From positions 398,460 through 462,459 of the forward strand of contig NZ_QNHG01000003.1 in assembly GCF_003290025.1 (NCBI RefSeq): 64,000 bases of DNA, written 5' to 3'. Positions within the stretch are counted from its first letter, which is position 1. Each line of letters begins with the position of its first letter. The translations under genes and the position numbers were made by a program. This stretch comes from Pseudogemmobacter bohemicus. Its GTDB lineage: Bacteria > Pseudomonadota > Alphaproteobacteria > Rhodobacterales > Rhodobacteraceae. The notes beneath the pieces are model-generated. The model was not told where the DNA came from. It made no database searches and saw only the letters and a program-made list of their open reading frames with translations. Shown here in pieces: positions 14,468 to 45,150 of the stretch.

Positions 14468-16585
14468 ATGATTGACGTTGAAGACCTTATCGCCCTCGTC
14501 CGCAATTATAACCCACGCTCCGATGCCGATCTGATCCGCCGCGCCTATGCCTATGGCATAAGGATGCATGAGGGGCAGTTCCGTAAATCTGGCGAGCCCT
14601 ATTTCACCCATCCCGTCGCCGTCGCCGCCATTCTTACCGAGATGCGGCTGGATGATGACACGATCGTCACCGCGCTTTTGCATGACACGATCGAAGACAC
14701 CCGCTCGACCTGGACCGAGATCGCCGACCAGTTCGGCCCCGAGGTTGCGGAACTGGTGGATGGTGTCACCAAGCTGACCAATCTCCAGCTGTCCTCGGCC
14801 GAAAGCAAACAGGCCGAGAATTTCCGCAAGCTTTTCATGGCGATGTCCAAGGATCTGCGGGTGATCCTGGTGAAACTCGCCGACCGTCTGCACAATATGC
14901 GGACCATCAAGTCGATGAAGGCGGAAAAGCAGGCGCAAAAAGCCCGCGAGACGATGGAGATCTATGCGCCGCTGGCGGGGCGCATGGGGATGCAATGGAT
15001 GCGCGAAGAACTGGAGGATCTGTCCTTCCGCGTGTTGAACCCCGATGCGCGCAATTCGATCATCCGCCGCTATGTGACCTTGCAGAAGAAAACCGGCGAT
15101 GTGGTCCATAAGATCACCGCCGATATCCGGTCCGAGCTTGACCGCGAGGGGCTGGAGGCGATGGTTTACGGCCGCGCCAAGAAACCCTATTCGATCTGGC
15201 GCAAGATGCAGGAGAAGGATCTCGCCTTCTCGCAGCTCTCAGACATCTATGGCTTCCGGGTGATCTGCGGCTCGCTGCCCGATTGCTACCGCATCCTCGG
15301 CGTGATCCATCAGCGCTGGCGGGCGGTGCCGGGGCGGTTCAAGGATTACATCTCTCAGCCGAAATCCAACGGCTACCGTTCGATCCACACGACGGTTTCA
15401 GGACGCGCGGCCTCCAAGGTCGAGGTGCAGATCCGCACCCGCGAGATGCATGAGGTCGCCGAATCTGGTGTCGCCGCGCATTGGTCCTACCGCGAGGGCG
15501 TGCTGGGCCGGAACCCCTTCGCCGTCGATCCCGCCAGCTGGATCAGCCAGATGACCGAGCGTCTGGACGAGGAAGACCACGACGAATTCCTCGAAAACGT
15601 CAAGCTTGAGATGTATTCCGATCAGGTCTTCTGCTTCACGCCCAAGGGGGATGTGGTGCAGTTGCCACGCGGTGCAACGCCTCTCGATTTCGCCTATGCG
15701 ATCCATACCAGGATCGGGAATTCCACCGTATCGGCAAAGGTCGACGGCATTCGCGTGCCGCTCTGGACCCGGCTGAAAAACGGACAATCCGTCGAGATCA
15801 TCACCGCCGAGGGCCAGCGCCCGCAACCGACCTGGGTGGATATCGTCACCACGGGCCGCGCCAAGGCCGCGATCCGCCGGTCCCTGCGTGAGGAAGACCG
15901 CGGCCGTTTCGTCAAACTCGGCCAGGAACTGGCGCGGGCGGCGTTCGAGCATGTCGGCAAGAAGGCCAGCGAAAAGGCCATGCGTACGGCGGCGAAACTG
16001 CTGGGCTACCCGGATGAGAGTGAGCTTCTGGCCCGTGTCGGCTCGGCCGAGATCACCGCGCGCCGCCTTGTCGAGGTGCTCTACCCGGAACTGGTGACCA
16101 CCCGCGAGCCCCAGGTCGACAGCCAGCGCCCGGTTGTCGGGCTGGAAAACGACCAGGCCTTCCGCCGCGCCCCCTGCTGCCAGCCGCTGCCGGGCGAGCG
16201 CATCGTCGGCATCACCTATCGCGGCAAGGGTGTCGTCGCCCATGCCATCGACTGCCCGGCGCTGGAAGAATTTGAGAGCCAGACCGAACGCTGGGTCGAT
16301 CTGCAATGGATGACCGGCCGCCATGCGCCGATCCATTCCGTGTCGCTGGAGCTGACGATCTCCAATGATGCCGGCGTGCTGGGCCGGGTCTGCACCCTGA
16401 TCGGCGAGCAGCGGGCCAATATCTCGGATCTGAAATTCTCCGACCGCAAACCCGATTTCTTCCGCCTGCTGATCGAGGTGGATCTGCGCGATGTCGAACA
16501 TCTGCATATGGTGATGACCGCGCTTGAGGCCGATACCGATGTGGCGCAGATCTCGCGCCACCGCGACCTTTCGCGCAAGCCCTGA
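14468..16585 (+). CDS. relA: Bifunctional (p)ppGpp synthetase/hydrolase (RelA/SpoT)
   Basis: Protein of 705 residues that makes and degrades the stringent-response alarmone. The hydrolase HD site is intact (FTHPVAVAAIL; ALLHDTIEDT with H72-D73; VKLADRLHNMRT), so this is a dual-function Rsh enzyme and not a RelA-only type. The synthetase domain is present (KKPYSIWRKMQEK; LSDIYGFRVI; FKDYISQPKSNGYRSIHTTV). A TGS domain follows (VFCFTPKGDVVQLPRGATPL), then a zinc-finger/helical part and a C-terminal ACT domain (SLELTISNDAGVLGRVCTLI). Downstream of rpoZ on the same strand. Confidence 0.96.
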   Translation: MIDVEDLIALVRNYNPRSDADLIRRAYAYGIRMHEGQFRKSGEPYFTHPVAVAAILTEMRLDDDTIVTALLHDTIEDTRSTWTEIADQFGPEVAELVDGVTKLTNLQLSSAESKQAENFRKLFMAMSKDLRVILVKLADRLHNMRTIKSMKAEKQAQKARETMEIYAPLAGRMGMQWMREELEDLSFRVLNPDARNSIIRRYVTLQKKTGDVVHKITADIRSELDREGLEAMVYGRAKKPYSIWRKMQEKDLAFSQLSDIYGFRVICGSLPDCYRILGVIHQRWRAVPGRFKDYISQPKSNGYRSIHTTVSGRAASKVEVQIRTREMHEVAESGVAAHWSYREGVLGRNPFAVDPASWISQMTERLDEEDHDEFLENVKLEMYSDQVFCFTPKGDVVQLPRGATPLDFAYAIHTRIGNSTVSAKVDGIRVPLWTRLKNGQSVEIITAEGQRPQPTWVDIVTTGRAKAAIRRSLREEDRGRFVKLGQELARAAFEHVGKKASEKAMRTAAKLLGYPDESELLARVGSAEITARRLVEVLYPELVTTREPQVDSQRPVVGLENDQAFRRAPCCQPLPGERIVGITYRGKGVVAHAIDCPALEEFESQTERWVDLQWMTGRHAPIHSVSLELTISNDAGVLGRVCTLIGEQRANISDLKFSDRKPDFFRLLIEVDLRDVEHLHMVMTALEADTDVAQISRHRDLSRKP

Positions 16586-40088: not shown

Positions 40089-41410
40089 TTACTCAGCCGT
40101 CAGCAGCGGCGGTTTCGATCCGGTGATCCGGGGTTTTGCCGGCTCCTGGATCTGCAGGTCGATGGCTCCATCCTTGACGGCCACCTTCACCACACCCCCT
40201 TTTTGCAGGTCGCCGAACAGCAGCTCTTCCGCCAGAGGCTTCTTGATATGTTCCTGGATCACACGCGCCAGCGGGCGGGCCCCCATCTTGTCGTCATAGC
40301 CTTTATCGGCGAGCCAGGCGGCGGCCTCAGAGGTCAGTTCGATATGGACGCCGCGGTCGATCAGCTGCGCTTCCAGCTGGAGGACGAATTTCTCGACCAC
40401 CTGCAGGATCACCTCTTTCGGCAGCGCACCGAAGGCCACGACCGCGTCGAGACGGTTGCGGAATTCGGGGGTGAAGGTGCGCTCCACCGCTGCCGTGTCT
40501 TCTCCGGTACGCTTGTCACGCCCAAAGCCGATGGCGGCTTTCTGCATGTCCGAGGCGCCGGCATTCGAGGTCATAATCAGGATCACATTGCGGAAATCCA
40601 CCGCCCGGCCGTTATGGTCGGTCAGCTTGCCGTGATCCATCACCTGCAACAGGATGTTGAACACATCCGGATGCGCTTTCTCGATCTCGTCAAGCAGCAG
40701 CACGCAATGCGGATGCTGGTCGACGCCATCGGTGAGCATGCCGCCCTGGTCGAAACCGACATAGCCCGGAGGCGCGCCGATCAGGCGGGATACCGCGTGT
40801 TTCTCCATATATTCCGACATGTCGAAGCGCAGGAGTTCCACACCCAGCGTATTCGCCAGCTGCTTTGCCACCTCGGTTTTCCCCACGCCGGTCGGGCCGG
40901 TGAAGAGGTAGTTGCCGATGGGTTTTTCCGGTTCGCGCAGGCCCGCGCGGGCCAGTTTGATCGAGGCAGACAGTGCCTCGATTGCCTTGTCCTGGCCGAA
41001 GACCAGCCGCTTCAGTGTCTTTTCCAGATCGCGCAGCACTTCCGCATCGTCTTTCGAGACGTTTTTCGGCGGGATGCGGGCGATTTTCGCGACCACGGCC
41101 TCGATCTCTTTGGTGCCGATCTGCTTCCTGCGCTTCGACTCGGAGACCAGATGCTGGGCGGCACCGGCCTCGTCGATCACGTCGATGGCCGAATCCGGCA
41201 ACTTGCGGTCGTTGATGTAGCGATGCGCCAGTTCGACAGCGGTTTTGATCGCGTCATTGGTGTAACGCAGGTCGTGATGCTCTTCGAAATGCGGCTTAAG
41301 CCCCATCAGGATCTTGATCGTATCCGGCACAGACGGCTCGTTCACGTCGATCTTCTGGAAGCGGCGGCTCAGCGCGCGGTCTTTCTCGAAATGCTGACGG
41401 AACTCCTTAT
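40089..41410 (-). pseudogene. clpA: clpA, 3' part (C-terminal half), cut off by insertion
   Basis: Encodes the C-terminal 438 residues of ClpA, the AAA+ unfoldase that feeds ClpP: EFRQHFEKDRALSRRFQKID at the break, then the end of D1 and the whole D2 module with Walker A (GPTGVGKTEVAKQLA), Walker B (LLLDEIEKAH) and sensor 1 (MTSNAGASDMQKA). The IGL/IGF loop that contacts ClpP is visible as AAIGFGRDKR. The frame continues upstream into insertion DNA, so a chimeric product is possible but lacks the N domain and Walker boxes of D1. Joining this segment to 44149-45150 restores an intact gene. Confidence 0.95.
41406..41410. repeat. Target-site duplication, left copy (cttat)
   Basis: Five bases, cttat, at the left edge of the mobile unit, repeated at 44149-44153 at the right edge. 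In the uninterrupted gene the site occurs once, in the codons for Tyr-Lys of GSTTYKEF. Confidence 0.85.
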
Positions 41411-41571
41411 TGCACCTTGCCCAAGCCCTCATAGACCGAGGTAAAGGCATCGACGGCCTGTTGCAGCACCGGCTGCGTGTCGACGTCAAACTCGTCCATC
41501 GACGCGATAACCTGCGGGTGAAATGAGGGGCTGATCCTCGTATCCACACCCATGCCCAAGTCCTGTTCCAT
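41407..41571 (-). CDS. 5' fragment of an unidentified gene captured in the mobile unit
   Basis: Begins MEQDLGMGVDTRISPSFHPQ with a ribosome binding site (caggagac) nine to ten bases upstream and runs 54 codons to GLGKVQ. There the unit ends and the stop codon is supplied by the clpA target sequence. The original protein was therefore longer, its 3' part having been left at the donor site. Text such as ASMDEFDVDTQPVLQQAVDA looks like a soluble helical protein; the family is not recognised. Probably non-functional now. Confidence 0.55.
   Translation of the reverse strand: MEQDLGMGVDTRISPSFHPQVIASMDEFDVDTQPVLQQAVDAFTSVYEGLGKVQ
41411..41426 (+). repeat. Alternative (third) inverted repeat of the IS1380-type unit
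   Basis: tgcaccttgcccaagc matches the upstream inverted repeat (cccacatttcccaagt, read inward from 44148) at 11 of 16 positions, including the core cccaag. It begins exactly next to the left target duplication, so it was the end used in the last transposition. Confidence 0.75.
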
Positions 41572-41606
41572 CTGCCCTTGTCTCCTGTGAAAGCCGGATA
41601 AAAACT

Positions 41607-41625
41607 TACGCTTGCAGTAAGCGTA
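41607..41625. promoter_or_regulatory. Operator-like palindrome upstream of the captured gene fragment
   Basis: tacgctt and aagcgta form a seven-base perfect inverted repeat around gcagt, 36 bases before the start codon of the captured fragment. The position and symmetry suit a binding site for a dimeric repressor in the donor replicon. No regulator for it is in the window. Confidence 0.4.
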
Positions 41626-41787
41626 GGGCGGCCAGCAGAAGGTCTGCGAGCAATTTCTTTTGTTTTCAACATGCTGCATCACATCGCAAAGCATCGACGG
41701 GCAGACCAATCATCAAACGGTCAAAAGAAAAGTGGAGGGCTTCGCACGTCACGCCAAGCAGGCTGGCGGCAATCAGCAGGATTCCTA

Positions 41788-42477
41788 GGTCGTGTTGACA
41801 AAAGGGATTCCGCTGGCATTCGTCCTATGATTCAAGCTCATCTCTACGTGGGAGATGAACTTGGCACGCAACCTGATATCCGACGACGAGTGGACCTTCT
41901 TCGAGGGCTTCATTCGTGCCGTCCGGCACCCTAACGGGCGGAAACCTGCGGACCATCGTCTTGTTCTCGATGGAGTTTTCTGGATCGCAAGGACTGGTGC
42001 GCCATGGCGTGATCTGCCCGAAGAGTTTGGCAAGTGGTCCTCGGTCTACCGTCAGTTCCGCCGGTGGACTTTGGCGGGACTGTGGGAGGATATCCTGGAT
42101 GCGCTGAACCACGCTGGGATCGCGCCAGACAAGCTCCAGATGGTCGACAGCACTGTGATCCGCGCTCATCATCATGCTGCGGGCGCAAAAGGGGGACTCC
42201 GAAAGAGGCTCTTGGCCGTTCGAGAGGTGGCTTCTCGACCAAGATCCATCTCCGCGTCAATGGCGCAGGCCTCCCGATGAGGACTGAGATCACGCCGGGG
42301 CAGGTTTCCGACTACACCGGCTATGATCTGGTGATGGCCGACAACCTGCCGCAGCCAGCAGTTCTGGTCGCCGACAGGGGCTATGACTCTGATAAAATTC
42401 GGGAAGACATCGAGAACCGCAACGCCCTGCCCATGATACCGATGCGAAAGAACCGAAGGGTGCGCAAGGCTGTCGAC
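41788..42477 (+). mobile_element. IS5-family (IS427-like) element, 5' portion only
   Basis: Left end around ggtcgtgttgacaaaaggg, preceded by ctag-like sequence typical of IS427-group target sites. The transposase is in two frames: orfA from 41855 (MNLARNLISDDEWTFFEGFI to IRAHHHAAGAKGG) and orfB one base back, joined at the slippery run aaaaggggg (42187-42195), the normal -1 frameshift arrangement of this group. orfB continues STKIHLRVNGAGLPMRTEIT and VADRGYDSDKIREDI, then stops being IS5-like at RKAVD, where the IS1380 element begins. The last catalytic acid and the right end are missing, so it is dead. Confidence 0.85.
41855..42477 (+). pseudogene. IS5-family transposase (orfA-orfB), truncated
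   Basis: DDE transposase made by -1 frameshifting. Seen: N-terminal DUF4096-like region (WTFFEGFIRAVRHPNGRKPA, RTGAPWRDLPEEFGKWSSVY), the first catalytic aspartate in MVDSTVIRAHH and the second in VADRGYDS. The protein text ends at NRRVRKAVD and the expected E-containing C-terminal part is absent, replaced by the end of the IS1380 element. The open frame runs 27 more bases into that element before a stop. Confidence 0.85.
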
Positions 42478-44148
42478 CCTGCATTCCCCAAGTGGCGTGT
42501 CGTTTGAGGTGAAGATCGCCTGTATCCGAGCGCTAGACAAGGATTTTCTGCCGCAAGCGGCACCTGCGGTCGCGCAGACTGCTGGATCTGGACGGATCAG
42601 ACCGCGAAGCCGCTGTTTCCTTGCCCAGGGGCGGCGTTTTTCAGCGCAGCGGACAGATCTGTCCAGCCGCTTTCGTTCAGTTTGAGCGTGGATCGCGATC
42701 ATGCGCATAGCGGTGGCGCTCGCAATCGGCGGATAGCGGCGAGGATGGCGCGTACCATCGTGCCGGTGACAGCGACCTCGGCCAGCTGGAAGGTGATGGT
42801 GCGGGCGTGACGGACCACACGTGCCCCGATCTTGATCAGCTTCAGTTGCAGGCTGGTCAACGACCAGTCGGCCATGGCCTCGGGCAGCTCGATGCAGCGC
42901 AAGAAGGTGGCCAGGTTGTACGCCAGGGCGTGCAGTTGCAGCCGCACCTCATTGTCGCGGAACTTCCGGCACGACAGCCGCGTCCAGCGAAAGGCGTATT
43001 TGCCCTCTTTGATGTGCTGCTCGGCGGTGCCGCGCTGGTTGTAGAACCGCACCACCCAGTCCGGCTCCATCGGCAGGTTGGTGACGATGAAGCCGACACG
43101 CGGGAACAGTTCGCCCGGATGCCATTCGATCTTGGCGATCACCCGGCGTTCCTTGTCCCAGGACGCCGCCTGATACTCGAATTCCTCGAAGAACCGCTTG
43201 ACCTTGGTCAGTGACGGCCGCCCGACAGGGCGCGTTAGCCGATGCGCGATCTTGTCCTTGAGGACCGCGTTTGCGGGCAGCCGGATGGCGTAGAAGAACC
43301 GCGCTTCTTCCAATCGCTCATAGATCGCCGGGATCGCGTAGGCAGCATCGGCCCGGAAGAACCTGCCACCAAGGTCGCGCTCCGCGTAGCGCGCAATGAC
43401 GGGGTCGAGAACATCACGCCAGCCATCGGCGCTGTGGACGTTGCCATGGCGCAGGGCGCAGCGTTCCAGCATCCCGAACTGGTTGAACAGAAAGTTGGGG
43501 TGATAGCAGCTACAGTCGAAATGGCCATTCCAGGCAGACCCTTCCTGGTCGCCATGGGTCGGGCTGACCGAGCTGTCCATGTCCAGAACGATGTACTTCA
43601 GCCCGTTACGGTCATGGAACCGGTCGATCCATTGCCCGTTCAGGTCGGCCAGCGCGGCACGGTTCCCGGCCAGAGCCAGCGTCTCGGTCTCGAACCGTCC
43701 CATCTGCGATGCCGAGGCCGCTTGTGCATCGACCGCTCTGCCGCCGACAACTTGGCGCATGACCGGATCGCAGGCGAGACGGTTGGCGTCGTTGACATCC
43801 TCGTATCCGGCCAGCCGCCCAAAGACTGATTGCCGGAACAGGCCGTCGAGCCGATGGACCGTGTTCTTGCCAGAGCGAGTATCGCGCAGCGCCGCTGACG
43901 CCAAATCGGACAACCCGAGCGCGTCATCAAGCTCGCGCATCACCAGAAGGCCGCCGTCGGAACTGAGCTGCGTGCCGCGAAATTCCAGCCGCACGCGAGG
44001 GTCGAAATCCACCCGATCTGCCCGTTGCAAGCCCGCACCCTCTGGGTGATCCATGAAACGCGCCCCTCGCAGCCTTCAACACCATGTTTTATATAGGAAA
44101 TATAATGGTCAGGACAGCGAAATCAGCGCCTTACTTGGGAAATGTGGG
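42478..44148 (-). mobile_element. IS1380-family insertion sequence, apparently complete
   Basis: Element of 1,671 bases with imperfect 16-base inverted repeats: cctgcattccccaagt at 42478-42493 and cccacatttcccaagt read inward from 44148 (13 of 16 identical). The size and the single 451-residue transposase are normal for the family. It sits inside an IS5 transposase gene on its left and in clpA on its right, with no matching direct repeat at 42473-42477, as expected if the left flank was carried along from an earlier site. Confidence 0.88.
42699..44054 (-). CDS. IS1380-family transposase
   Basis: Full-length DDE transposase of 451 residues. Family signs are FRGTQLSSDGGLLVMRELDD at the N-terminus and RLDGLFRQSVFGRLAGYEDV. 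The first catalytic aspartate lies in IVLDMDSSVSPTHG (residues 158-160), the second in FFRADAAYA (D236), and the glutamate in NQRGTAEQHIKEGKYAF (about E345-E350). No frameshift or stop, so it could still be active. It starts 94 bases inside the element's upstream inverted repeat and is read towards the captured DNA, the orientation seen in ISEcp1. Confidence 0.93.
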   Translation of the reverse strand: MDHPEGAGLQRADRVDFDPRVRLEFRGTQLSSDGGLLVMRELDDALGLSDLASAALRDTRSGKNTVHRLDGLFRQSVFGRLAGYEDVNDANRLACDPVMRQVVGGRAVDAQAASASQMGRFETETLALAGNRAALADLNGQWIDRFHDRNGLKYIVLDMDSSVSPTHGDQEGSAWNGHFDCSCYHPNFLFNQFGMLERCALRHGNVHSADGWRDVLDPVIARYAERDLGGRFFRADAAYAIPAIYERLEEARFFYAIRLPANAVLKDKIAHRLTRPVGRPSLTKVKRFFEEFEYQAASWDKERRVIAKIEWHPGELFPRVGFIVTNLPMEPDWVVRFYNQRGTAEQHIKEGKYAFRWTRLSCRKFRDNEVRLQLHALAYNLATFLRCIELPEAMADWSLTSLQLKLIKIGARVVRHARTITFQLAEVAVTGTMVRAILAAIRRLRAPPLCA

Positions 44149-44153
44149 CTTAT
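44149..44153. repeat. Target-site duplication, right copy (cttat)
   Basis: Second copy of cttat, directly outside the upstream inverted repeat of the IS1380-type unit; see the left copy at 41406. Confidence 0.85.
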
Positions 44154-45150
44154 AGGTGGTCGAGCCCATCGTCCTGAGCTTGCCGCCCTGCAGCGCCGGT
44201 TTCAGCAGGTTCGAGGCATCCATCGCGCCGCCGGAAGTCGCGCCCGCACCGATCACGGTATGGATCTCGTCGATGAAGAGGATGCCGTCGGGATGGTCCT
44301 CCATCTCTTTGACCACGGCTTTCAGGCGTTCCTCGAAATCACCGCGATAGCGGGTTCCTGCCAGAAGCGCGCCCATATCGAGCGAGAAGATGGTAGCGCC
44401 CGAAAGCACCTCGGGCACCTCACCGCGCACGATCTTCCAGGCGAGGCCTTCGGCGATTGCGGTCTTGCCCACTCCGGGGTCGCCCACCAGCAGCGGGTTG
44501 TTCTTGCGGCGGCGGCACAGAACCTGGATCGCGCGCTCGACCTCGGCCTCGCGACCGATCAGCGGGTCGACCTCGCCTTTGCGGGCTTTGACGTTCAGAT
44601 CGACGCAATATTTCGACAGTGCCGATTCCTTCGCCTCACCGGCCTCGGCTTTCGGCGTTTCCTGCGGCTCATCCGAGCCCTGGATCGGGCGCGCCTCGCC
44701 GAAGGCGGGGTTTTTCGCCACGCCATGCGCAATGAAATTCACGGCGTCATAGCGGGTCATATCCTGTTCTTGCAGGAAGTAAGCCGCGTTCGACTCGCGT
44801 TCGGCGAAGATCGCGACCAGCACATTGGCGCCGGTGACCTCGGTACGGCCCGAGGATTGCACATGGATCGCCGCCCGCTGGATCACGCGCTGGAAAGCGG
44901 CGGTCGGCACAGCCTCGGAGCCTTCGACATTGGTGACGAGGGTGGACAGATCTTCGTCGACGAAATCGGTCAGCGTTTTGCGCAGCTCATCCAGATCGAC
45001 CGAGCATGCCTTCATCACCCGCGCGGCGTCGGGTTCGTCAATCAGGGCCAGCAGAAGATGTTCCAGGGTTGCCAGTTCGTGGCGGCGGGCATTGGCCAGA
45101 GCCAGCGCACCATGAATGGCTTGTTCGAGCGTGGACGAGAATGACGGCAC
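44149..45150 (-). pseudogene. clpA: clpA, 5' part (N domain and most of D1), cut off by insertion
   Basis: Encodes residues 1-334 of ClpA: the N domain ([20 protein letters not shown]) that binds ClpS and substrates, and D1 with Walker A ([19 protein letters not shown]), Walker B ([12 protein letters not shown]) and up to GSTTYK. It then reads PTFPK in the insertion and stops. The product would lack sensor residues, the arginine finger and all of D2. Together with 40089-41405 it would make a 772-residue protein, normal for ClpA. The start codon follows an acaggagcagg-type site. ClpS-dependent N-degron degradation should be lost unless a second copy exists. Confidence 0.95.

Follow-up and report, generated by a model that had tools for sequence, protein, structure and literature searches.

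IS1247 and 1067 bp of adjoining DNA in clpA of Pseudogemmobacter bohemicus, a probable single-element transposable module

In Pseudogemmobacter bohemicus (NCBI RefSeq assembly GCF_003290025.1, contig NZ_QNHG01000003.1), the clpA gene is split by a 2738-bp block in which a copy of the insertion sequence (IS) IS1247 very probably transposed together with neighboring DNA, as one unit and by way of an alternative end; judging from sequence comparisons, we put the probability of this reading near 0.96. Positions refer to the window, the whole 64,000-nucleotide stretch of DNA analyzed here. The block occupies 41411–44148 and is composed of IS1247 (42478–44148) plus 1067 bp past its downstream end, of which 693 bp belong to an IS5-family element and 374 bp carry the start of an unrelated gene. 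It interrupts clpA, which is encoded on the minus strand, between a 5′ part with Clp_N and the first AAA domain (44154–45150; Pfam Clp_N, AAA) and a 3′ part with the second AAA domain and C-terminal part (40089–41405; Pfam AAA_2, ClpB_D2-small).

A first-pass annotation made from the letters of this DNA had proposed three matching end sequences, and all of its coordinates hold: one end upstream of the transposase (44133–44148, minus strand), the element’s own downstream end, which would have been skipped in the clpA event (42478–42493, plus strand), and an alternative end used in its place (41411–41426, plus strand). Over 16 bases, the first end matches the second at 13, the first matches the third at 11 and the second matches the third at 9. 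The pentamer CTTAT stands directly outside the first and third ends, and thus outside both block edges (44149–44153 on the transposase-start side, 41406–41410 on the captured-DNA side), and there is no duplication around the second, again as annotated. Joining the flanks by script with one CTTAT yields a clpA of 772 codons with a single final stop, which aligns gap-free to three congeners at 98.6–98.7% identity over all 772; the annotation’s claim of a perfect clpA once the block is removed was thus well founded, clpA is undamaged apart from the block, and the insertion probably happened recently. Within a 15.9-kb flank, 3 of 15,920 positions, the block’s own site counted, agree with an end in at least 11 of 16 bases and four CTTAT sites occur, so that fewer than 0.001 such coincidences are expected, even before the exact fit of the site to the clpA junction is added.

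The empty site can be read in congeners. Our comparison set comprised 12 other Pseudogemmobacter genomes, which belong to other species of the genus and include no sister strains of P. bohemicus. The clpA flank is present in all 13 genomes of the genus, P. bohemicus included, and the two sides of clpA are contiguous in all 12 congeners, the far side matching at 49–58 of 60 bases. The pentamer at the empty site is CTTAT in four congeners, CTTGT in five, TTTAT in two and TTTGT in one, so the uninterrupted clpA sought by the annotation exists, with a single CTTAT in a third of cases and variants of it in the others. The outcomes that the annotation had named as speaking against its reading (the same block without the IS, an absence of CTTAT from the empty site, or the extra DNA as native sequence beside clpA) did not turn up among these congeners.

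The mobile part of the block is an intact, 1671-bp IS1247 of the IS1380 family on the minus strand. One plasmid record, annotated as IS1380-like element IS1247, matches it at 100%, and the other 29 records among the 30 matches listed of 199 matching records do so at 99.8–99.9%; the element encodes a 451-residue transposase (42699–44054, minus strand; PF13701 DDE_Tnp_1_4, E = 2.2e-143). The annotation had compared the event with ISEcp1, which makes 5-bp duplications; its assignment to the IS1380 family is borne out, whereas ISEcp1 is not the closest precedent, as the element is IS1247 and the same ability is in print for IS1247 itself. Table 2 of PMC3281130 gives IS1247 as 1672 bp with ends matching at 13 of 16 and 5-bp repeats; the window element, with 1671 bp, 13 of 16 and 5-bp duplications at four plain copies in the genome, fits these values. 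Seven further full-length copies reside in the same genome (5.6 Mb, 16 contigs), four identical to that in the window and three at 99.0–99.2%, so that aligning all copies, as the annotation had suggested, defines the ends independently of the clpA copy; the boundary at 44148 is common to them. By our census, the eight copies comprise four plain insertions, with duplications CATAA, TTCAA, TTTCA and ATATA at their own ends, three modules in which IS1247 is joined to captured DNA, and one copy without an explanation.

The captured DNA has recognizable origins. Next to IS1247 lie the first 693 of approximately 857 bp of an IS5-family element (41785–42477, plus strand), identified by three intact genome copies at 99.9–100% and by PF13340 in its reading frame. 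This part is cut after TCGAC (42473–42477, plus strand), the likely target of an earlier IS1247 insertion, where the intact copies go on with ATGACC. Beyond it, 374 bp (41411–41784, minus strand) hold upstream DNA and the first 53 codons (41413–41571) of a gene without an assigned function. A Rhodobacteraceae metagenome-assembled genome (JAPUEK010000063.1; here L055) matches 312 bp of this piece at 88%, starting exactly at 41411, and there the gene extends past 41411 to 250 amino acids, as the annotation had anticipated for the captured gene. The 16 letters of the third end also occur inside the intact L055 gene, and the end at 41411 is therefore a look-alike rather than an IS remnant. For the captured gene, plasmids gave no match by DNA or protein; in 194 related genomes, a search by DNA returned the own copy and one 29-bp match in another genome, and by protein the own copy was joined by a single weak match at 28%. 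Scanning genome contigs brought up two loci, in L055 (92% over 53 amino acids) and Rhodomicrobium (51% over 45 amino acids). Pfam matched neither the 53-codon fragment nor the 250-residue L055 relative. In the stretch L055:2756–5267, this relative is flanked by a DndB-domain gene on one side and, on the other, by a gene whose DUF5681 match is weak and below cutoff; the neighborhood may be a mobile island.

A likely donor of the clpA module is partly readable on contig C1 of the same genome. There, a 171-bp match at 100% takes up where the captured IS5 part ends; this side reads GTCGAC, which supplies the second TCGAC at the head of the IS5 remainder, and then the missing rest of the IS5. The few letters readable just before it are Gs, which differ from intact IS5; they would fit an IS1247 copy’s outer end, though there are too few of them for proof. 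Beyond the remainder, 461 bp match L055 at 94.6% (L055:1966–1507), in the order and orientation expected with the captured piece (L055:4161–3851) across the IS5 from it. The donor search proposed in the annotation thus succeeded in part, recovering the IS5 remainder with TCGAC beside L055-like DNA, while the IS1247-interrupted IS5 itself can be read on one side only. IS1247 was likely retained at this donor.

The clpA case is not unique, as two more IS1247 modules occur in the same genome. In one, no duplication borders the own ends of the IS1247 copy on contig C1 (L004/L019); its adjoining 364 bp are a 100% match to DNA beside the contig C8 copy (L005/L020), and ATAAA encloses the 364 bp together with IS1247. 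This module splits a pirin gene, with Pirin domains found by Pfam at the target, and its flanks, once joined, align through the junction with an uninterrupted paralogue from this genome (78.6% over 373 bp). Because a TTCAA duplication borders the C8 copy itself, the direction of movement is from C8 to C1, with the donor still present.

In the other, a C8 copy (L006/L021) again lacks a duplication at its own ends. Its flank holds 16 ATCGA sites, the best end-like sequence (8/16) lying 2940 bp away; approximately 0.8 such site is expected, so this score alone is not telling. With a query ending at that place, three of the 12 congeners match to the query end and nine stop earlier, and a BLAST comparison of the whole locus with those three, each having at least 1500 bases of further flank, gave the same stop base in all three. 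In a Cereibacter plasmid with an uninterrupted target gene, L021:10075–10279 and 14881–15801 align to adjoining stretches with a 5-base overlap, and the same two stretches adjoin, by record positions, in two other Cereibacter plasmids. The duplication is ATCGA, or possibly 6 bp long, since a sixth base also agrees between the two sides. The 2.94-kb cargo includes a complete tex gene (779 amino acids, Tex domains), which occupies a shared setting in three congeners. Genes for a relaxase and a type IV coupling protein lie close to the target, and the contig looks like a plasmid or an integrated conjugative element. The sequences on either side of tex in the congeners have their matches on contigs C4 and C1, and that of tex is on C8; this region of the P. 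bohemicus genome is rearranged or split in the assembly. As the donor state is unreadable, we do not claim that tex was lost from its ancestral place.

We propose that a copy of IS1247 would have inserted into an IS5-family element beside a gene without an assigned function, duplicating TCGAC; that its transposase would then have paired the normal transposase-side end with a look-alike in that gene, 1067 bp past the real downstream end; and that the resulting 2738-bp unit would have entered clpA by a 5-bp staggered cut at CTTAT. The sequences show the structure of the block, its ends and duplication, the empty site, the native context of the captured gene and one side of the likely donor locus; action by IS1247’s own transposase, the order of the steps and the donor’s keeping its copy are what we infer from the arrangement. 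A different history, in which the gene piece and IS5 DNA reached clpA first by another route and IS1247 inserted afterwards, would agree with the fact that IS1247 did once enter an IS5, cut after TCGAC. Such a stepwise origin is very hard to reconcile, however, with the lack of a duplication at IS1247’s own ends (TCGAC on one side, CTTAT on the other), with a 5-bp repeat that encloses the whole block, and with an IS5 remainder at another locus, outside clpA. We likewise give very little weight to an assembly chimera, or homologous recombination between IS1247 copies without block transposition. Eight near-identical copies do make joins at the element risky, but a single clpA borders the block on both sides, in frame and with a 5-bp overlap, the 41411 junction is not at IS1247, and the signature recurs at two further places in the genome with independent empty sites.

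We favor joint transposition of IS1247 and its neighbor because the repeat surrounds the whole block and none stands at IS1247’s own ends; because the site is empty in all 12 congeners and the joined clpA is intact; and because the captured gene has a native continuation, with the IS5 remainder, TCGAC and L055-like DNA in the same genome. The pirin and tex modules, with matching repeats and independent empty sites, argue in the same direction, as do a module with its donor in Gemmobacter aquarius and published IS1380-family modules, including one of IS1247a. Capture of part of an IS5 and a gene start beyond the element’s own end, as the annotation had supposed, is thus supported by the empty site, L055 and the IS5 remainder. 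Several observations weigh on the other side. CTTAT itself is kept in just four of 12 congeners, the eight others being off by one or two bases; the donor is readable on one side only, with approximately 1.9 kb of L055 sequence missing from between its two sides; in the other proven modules, the distal ends fit the IS end poorly, at 8/16 at best; and the evidence in this strain comes from sequence.

An open frame of 527 amino acids (40089–41672, minus strand) begins in the captured DNA and enters clpA’s own frame. A promoter borne by the IS or captured with its cargo could thus drive production of a ClpA fragment that has the second AAA domain.

The unexplained IS1247 copy of this genome (C2:461448–463118; L002/L022) has differing flanks, TTGAA and GAAAG. 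No provable module accounts for it: among its 20 GAAAG sites, the best two agree with an end at 9 and 8 of 16 bases, against a background expectation of approximately 1.0 GAAAG site at 8/16 or better and 0.26 at 9/16 or better. For its right flank, neither the 13 genus genomes nor 292 relatives, 13 of which (P. bohemicus included) had any match, offered a usable empty site. Three other copies, at C8:46281–47941 (L006), C8:62028–63687 (L007) and C1:421016–422674 (L008), have 11 common single-base indels that break the transposase frame; their sole two substitutions fall at the very end and would both be accounted for by one further indel. All three are on the minus strand of their contigs and the five clean copies are on the plus strand, which suggests a consensus artefact. 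If real, the indels would mark dead copies moved in trans, an idea we dropped because the differences may be such artefacts. Elsewhere in the genus, one of the 12 other genomes has a full IS1247 copy, without a duplication (G008), and one has end pieces at contig ends, the readable ones including one pair bounded by CTTAA at either side and another whose flanks do not match (G006); one further genome gives a 71-base match at 75%, and nine give no IS1247 match.

On plasmids elsewhere, we examined 14 of the 30 listed records, leaving out 16: one from P. aeruginosa (H31), the seven enterobacterial ones (H54–H60) and eight presumed repeats of examined ones (H37–H43, H46). The matched copy has a duplication at its own ends in five records and none in nine, in a sample that is partly dependent, as L085, L088 and L089 have some left-flank sequence in common. 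The nine comprise one half of a two-copy composite (L094), one proven module (L089) and seven copies without assignment; a missing duplication alone does not prove a module. At L089, on a Gemmobacter aquarius plasmid, 1859 bp beside IS1247 are common to L085 on another plasmid of the same strain, and CTTCT encloses the unit; since L085 has its own TTCTA duplication, the donor of this module is retained. In Rhodobacteraceae bacterium SC52 pSC52_3 (L094), an APH(6)-type gene lies between two IS1247 copies with ATCAA outside both, a classic composite transposon. On pSHV3 of Sphingobium herbicidovorans, L084:2128–4000 is a candidate module, with TTAAT and a 10/16 end 1873 bp away; genes beside IS1247 are two of glutathione S-transferase type, one of YciI type and part of one of nitroreductase type, and no relative was found that would allow an empty-site comparison.

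The likeness of distal ends to the IS1247 end is real but weak. Against the better IS1247 end, the four proven distal ends match at 11, 8, 8 and 8 of 16 (window, L019, L021 and L089). Relative to all readable flank positions, the corresponding p values are 0.0002, 0.046, 0.050 and 0.038, that of L021 not being independent, as its place was first chosen by score among ATCGA sites; Fisher’s combination gives 2e-5, mostly due to the window’s end. A TTNCNC core, present in three of the four ends and missing in L089, was dropped as a rule.

More broadly, and while leaning somewhat against it, we raise the idea that distal-end choice by IS1247 is so loose that capture of neighbors is routine (three of eight copies), that the donor is left behind (both fully read pairs) and that a core gene, tex, can be moved from its ancestral place to a plasmid-like replicon. 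If so, one ordinary IS would be a frequent gene mover in Rhodobacterales, and donor–product pairs would bear on whether such transposition is conservative. Two pairs are readable with the donor present in both, L020 to L019 in this genome and L085 to L089 in G. aquarius, and a third is partly readable. These pairs fit a replicative route; repair from a sister copy would look identical. The four distal ends, fixed by duplication and an independent empty site or donor, could help to define a minimal end sequence, and the tex module shows that a complete core gene can be moved in this way. As this kind of event is already known, the value of the clpA case is as documentation, with a readable empty site and part of a donor site.

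The features of the block indicate a transposable module (TMo) with a single IS, a kind of event already known for IS1247. One IS copy stands at one end with foreign DNA on its 3′ side; a duplication surrounds IS and cargo with none at the IS’s inner end, as with ATAAA, ATCGA and CTTCT in the other modules; and the distal end resembles an IS end (11/16 here, 8/16 at the other three proven ends). A composite transposon would have a second IS copy at the far end, where there is just a 16-bp look-alike at 41411, and identity of the element to IS1247 sets the block apart from an ISEcp1 transposition unit. In earlier work under laboratory selection, a single IS1247 copy reportedly moved with dhlB, a second copy not being needed. 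TMos are described in PMC3281130 and PMC9330008 as IS1380-family elements carrying DNA beside their 3′ end, and the latter, a 2022 review, explains their formation by misreading of a site like an inverted repeat (IR). The same review says that, to its authors’ knowledge, the donor site was not followed in ISEcp1 studies, that hybridization patterns of ISPme1 TMos indicate a replicative route, and that whether such transposition is conservative is unanswered. The reference list of PMC3281130 names mobilization of a dehalogenase gene by IS1247 (van der Ploeg et al. 1995), and those of both papers name an IS1247a-driven TMo of Paracoccus marcusii (Szuplewska and Bartosik 2009). The dhlB event involves the same element as the clpA module; here, by contrast, a gene fragment and an incomplete IS5 make up the cargo, which brings no visible benefit and comes at the cost of a broken clpA. 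The P. marcusii TMo, driven by IS1247a by its title, differs, by title alone, in being a mosaic with ISPmar4. Likened by description only (PMC9330008), the ISPme1 TMos of Paracoccus methylutens (Bartosik et al. 2008) involve another IS of the IS1380 family that mobilizes 3′ DNA of variable length via an IR-like site, and ISEcp1 units share the family and the same end misrecognition, whereas the element is another one and the cargo in clpA is non-resistance DNA.

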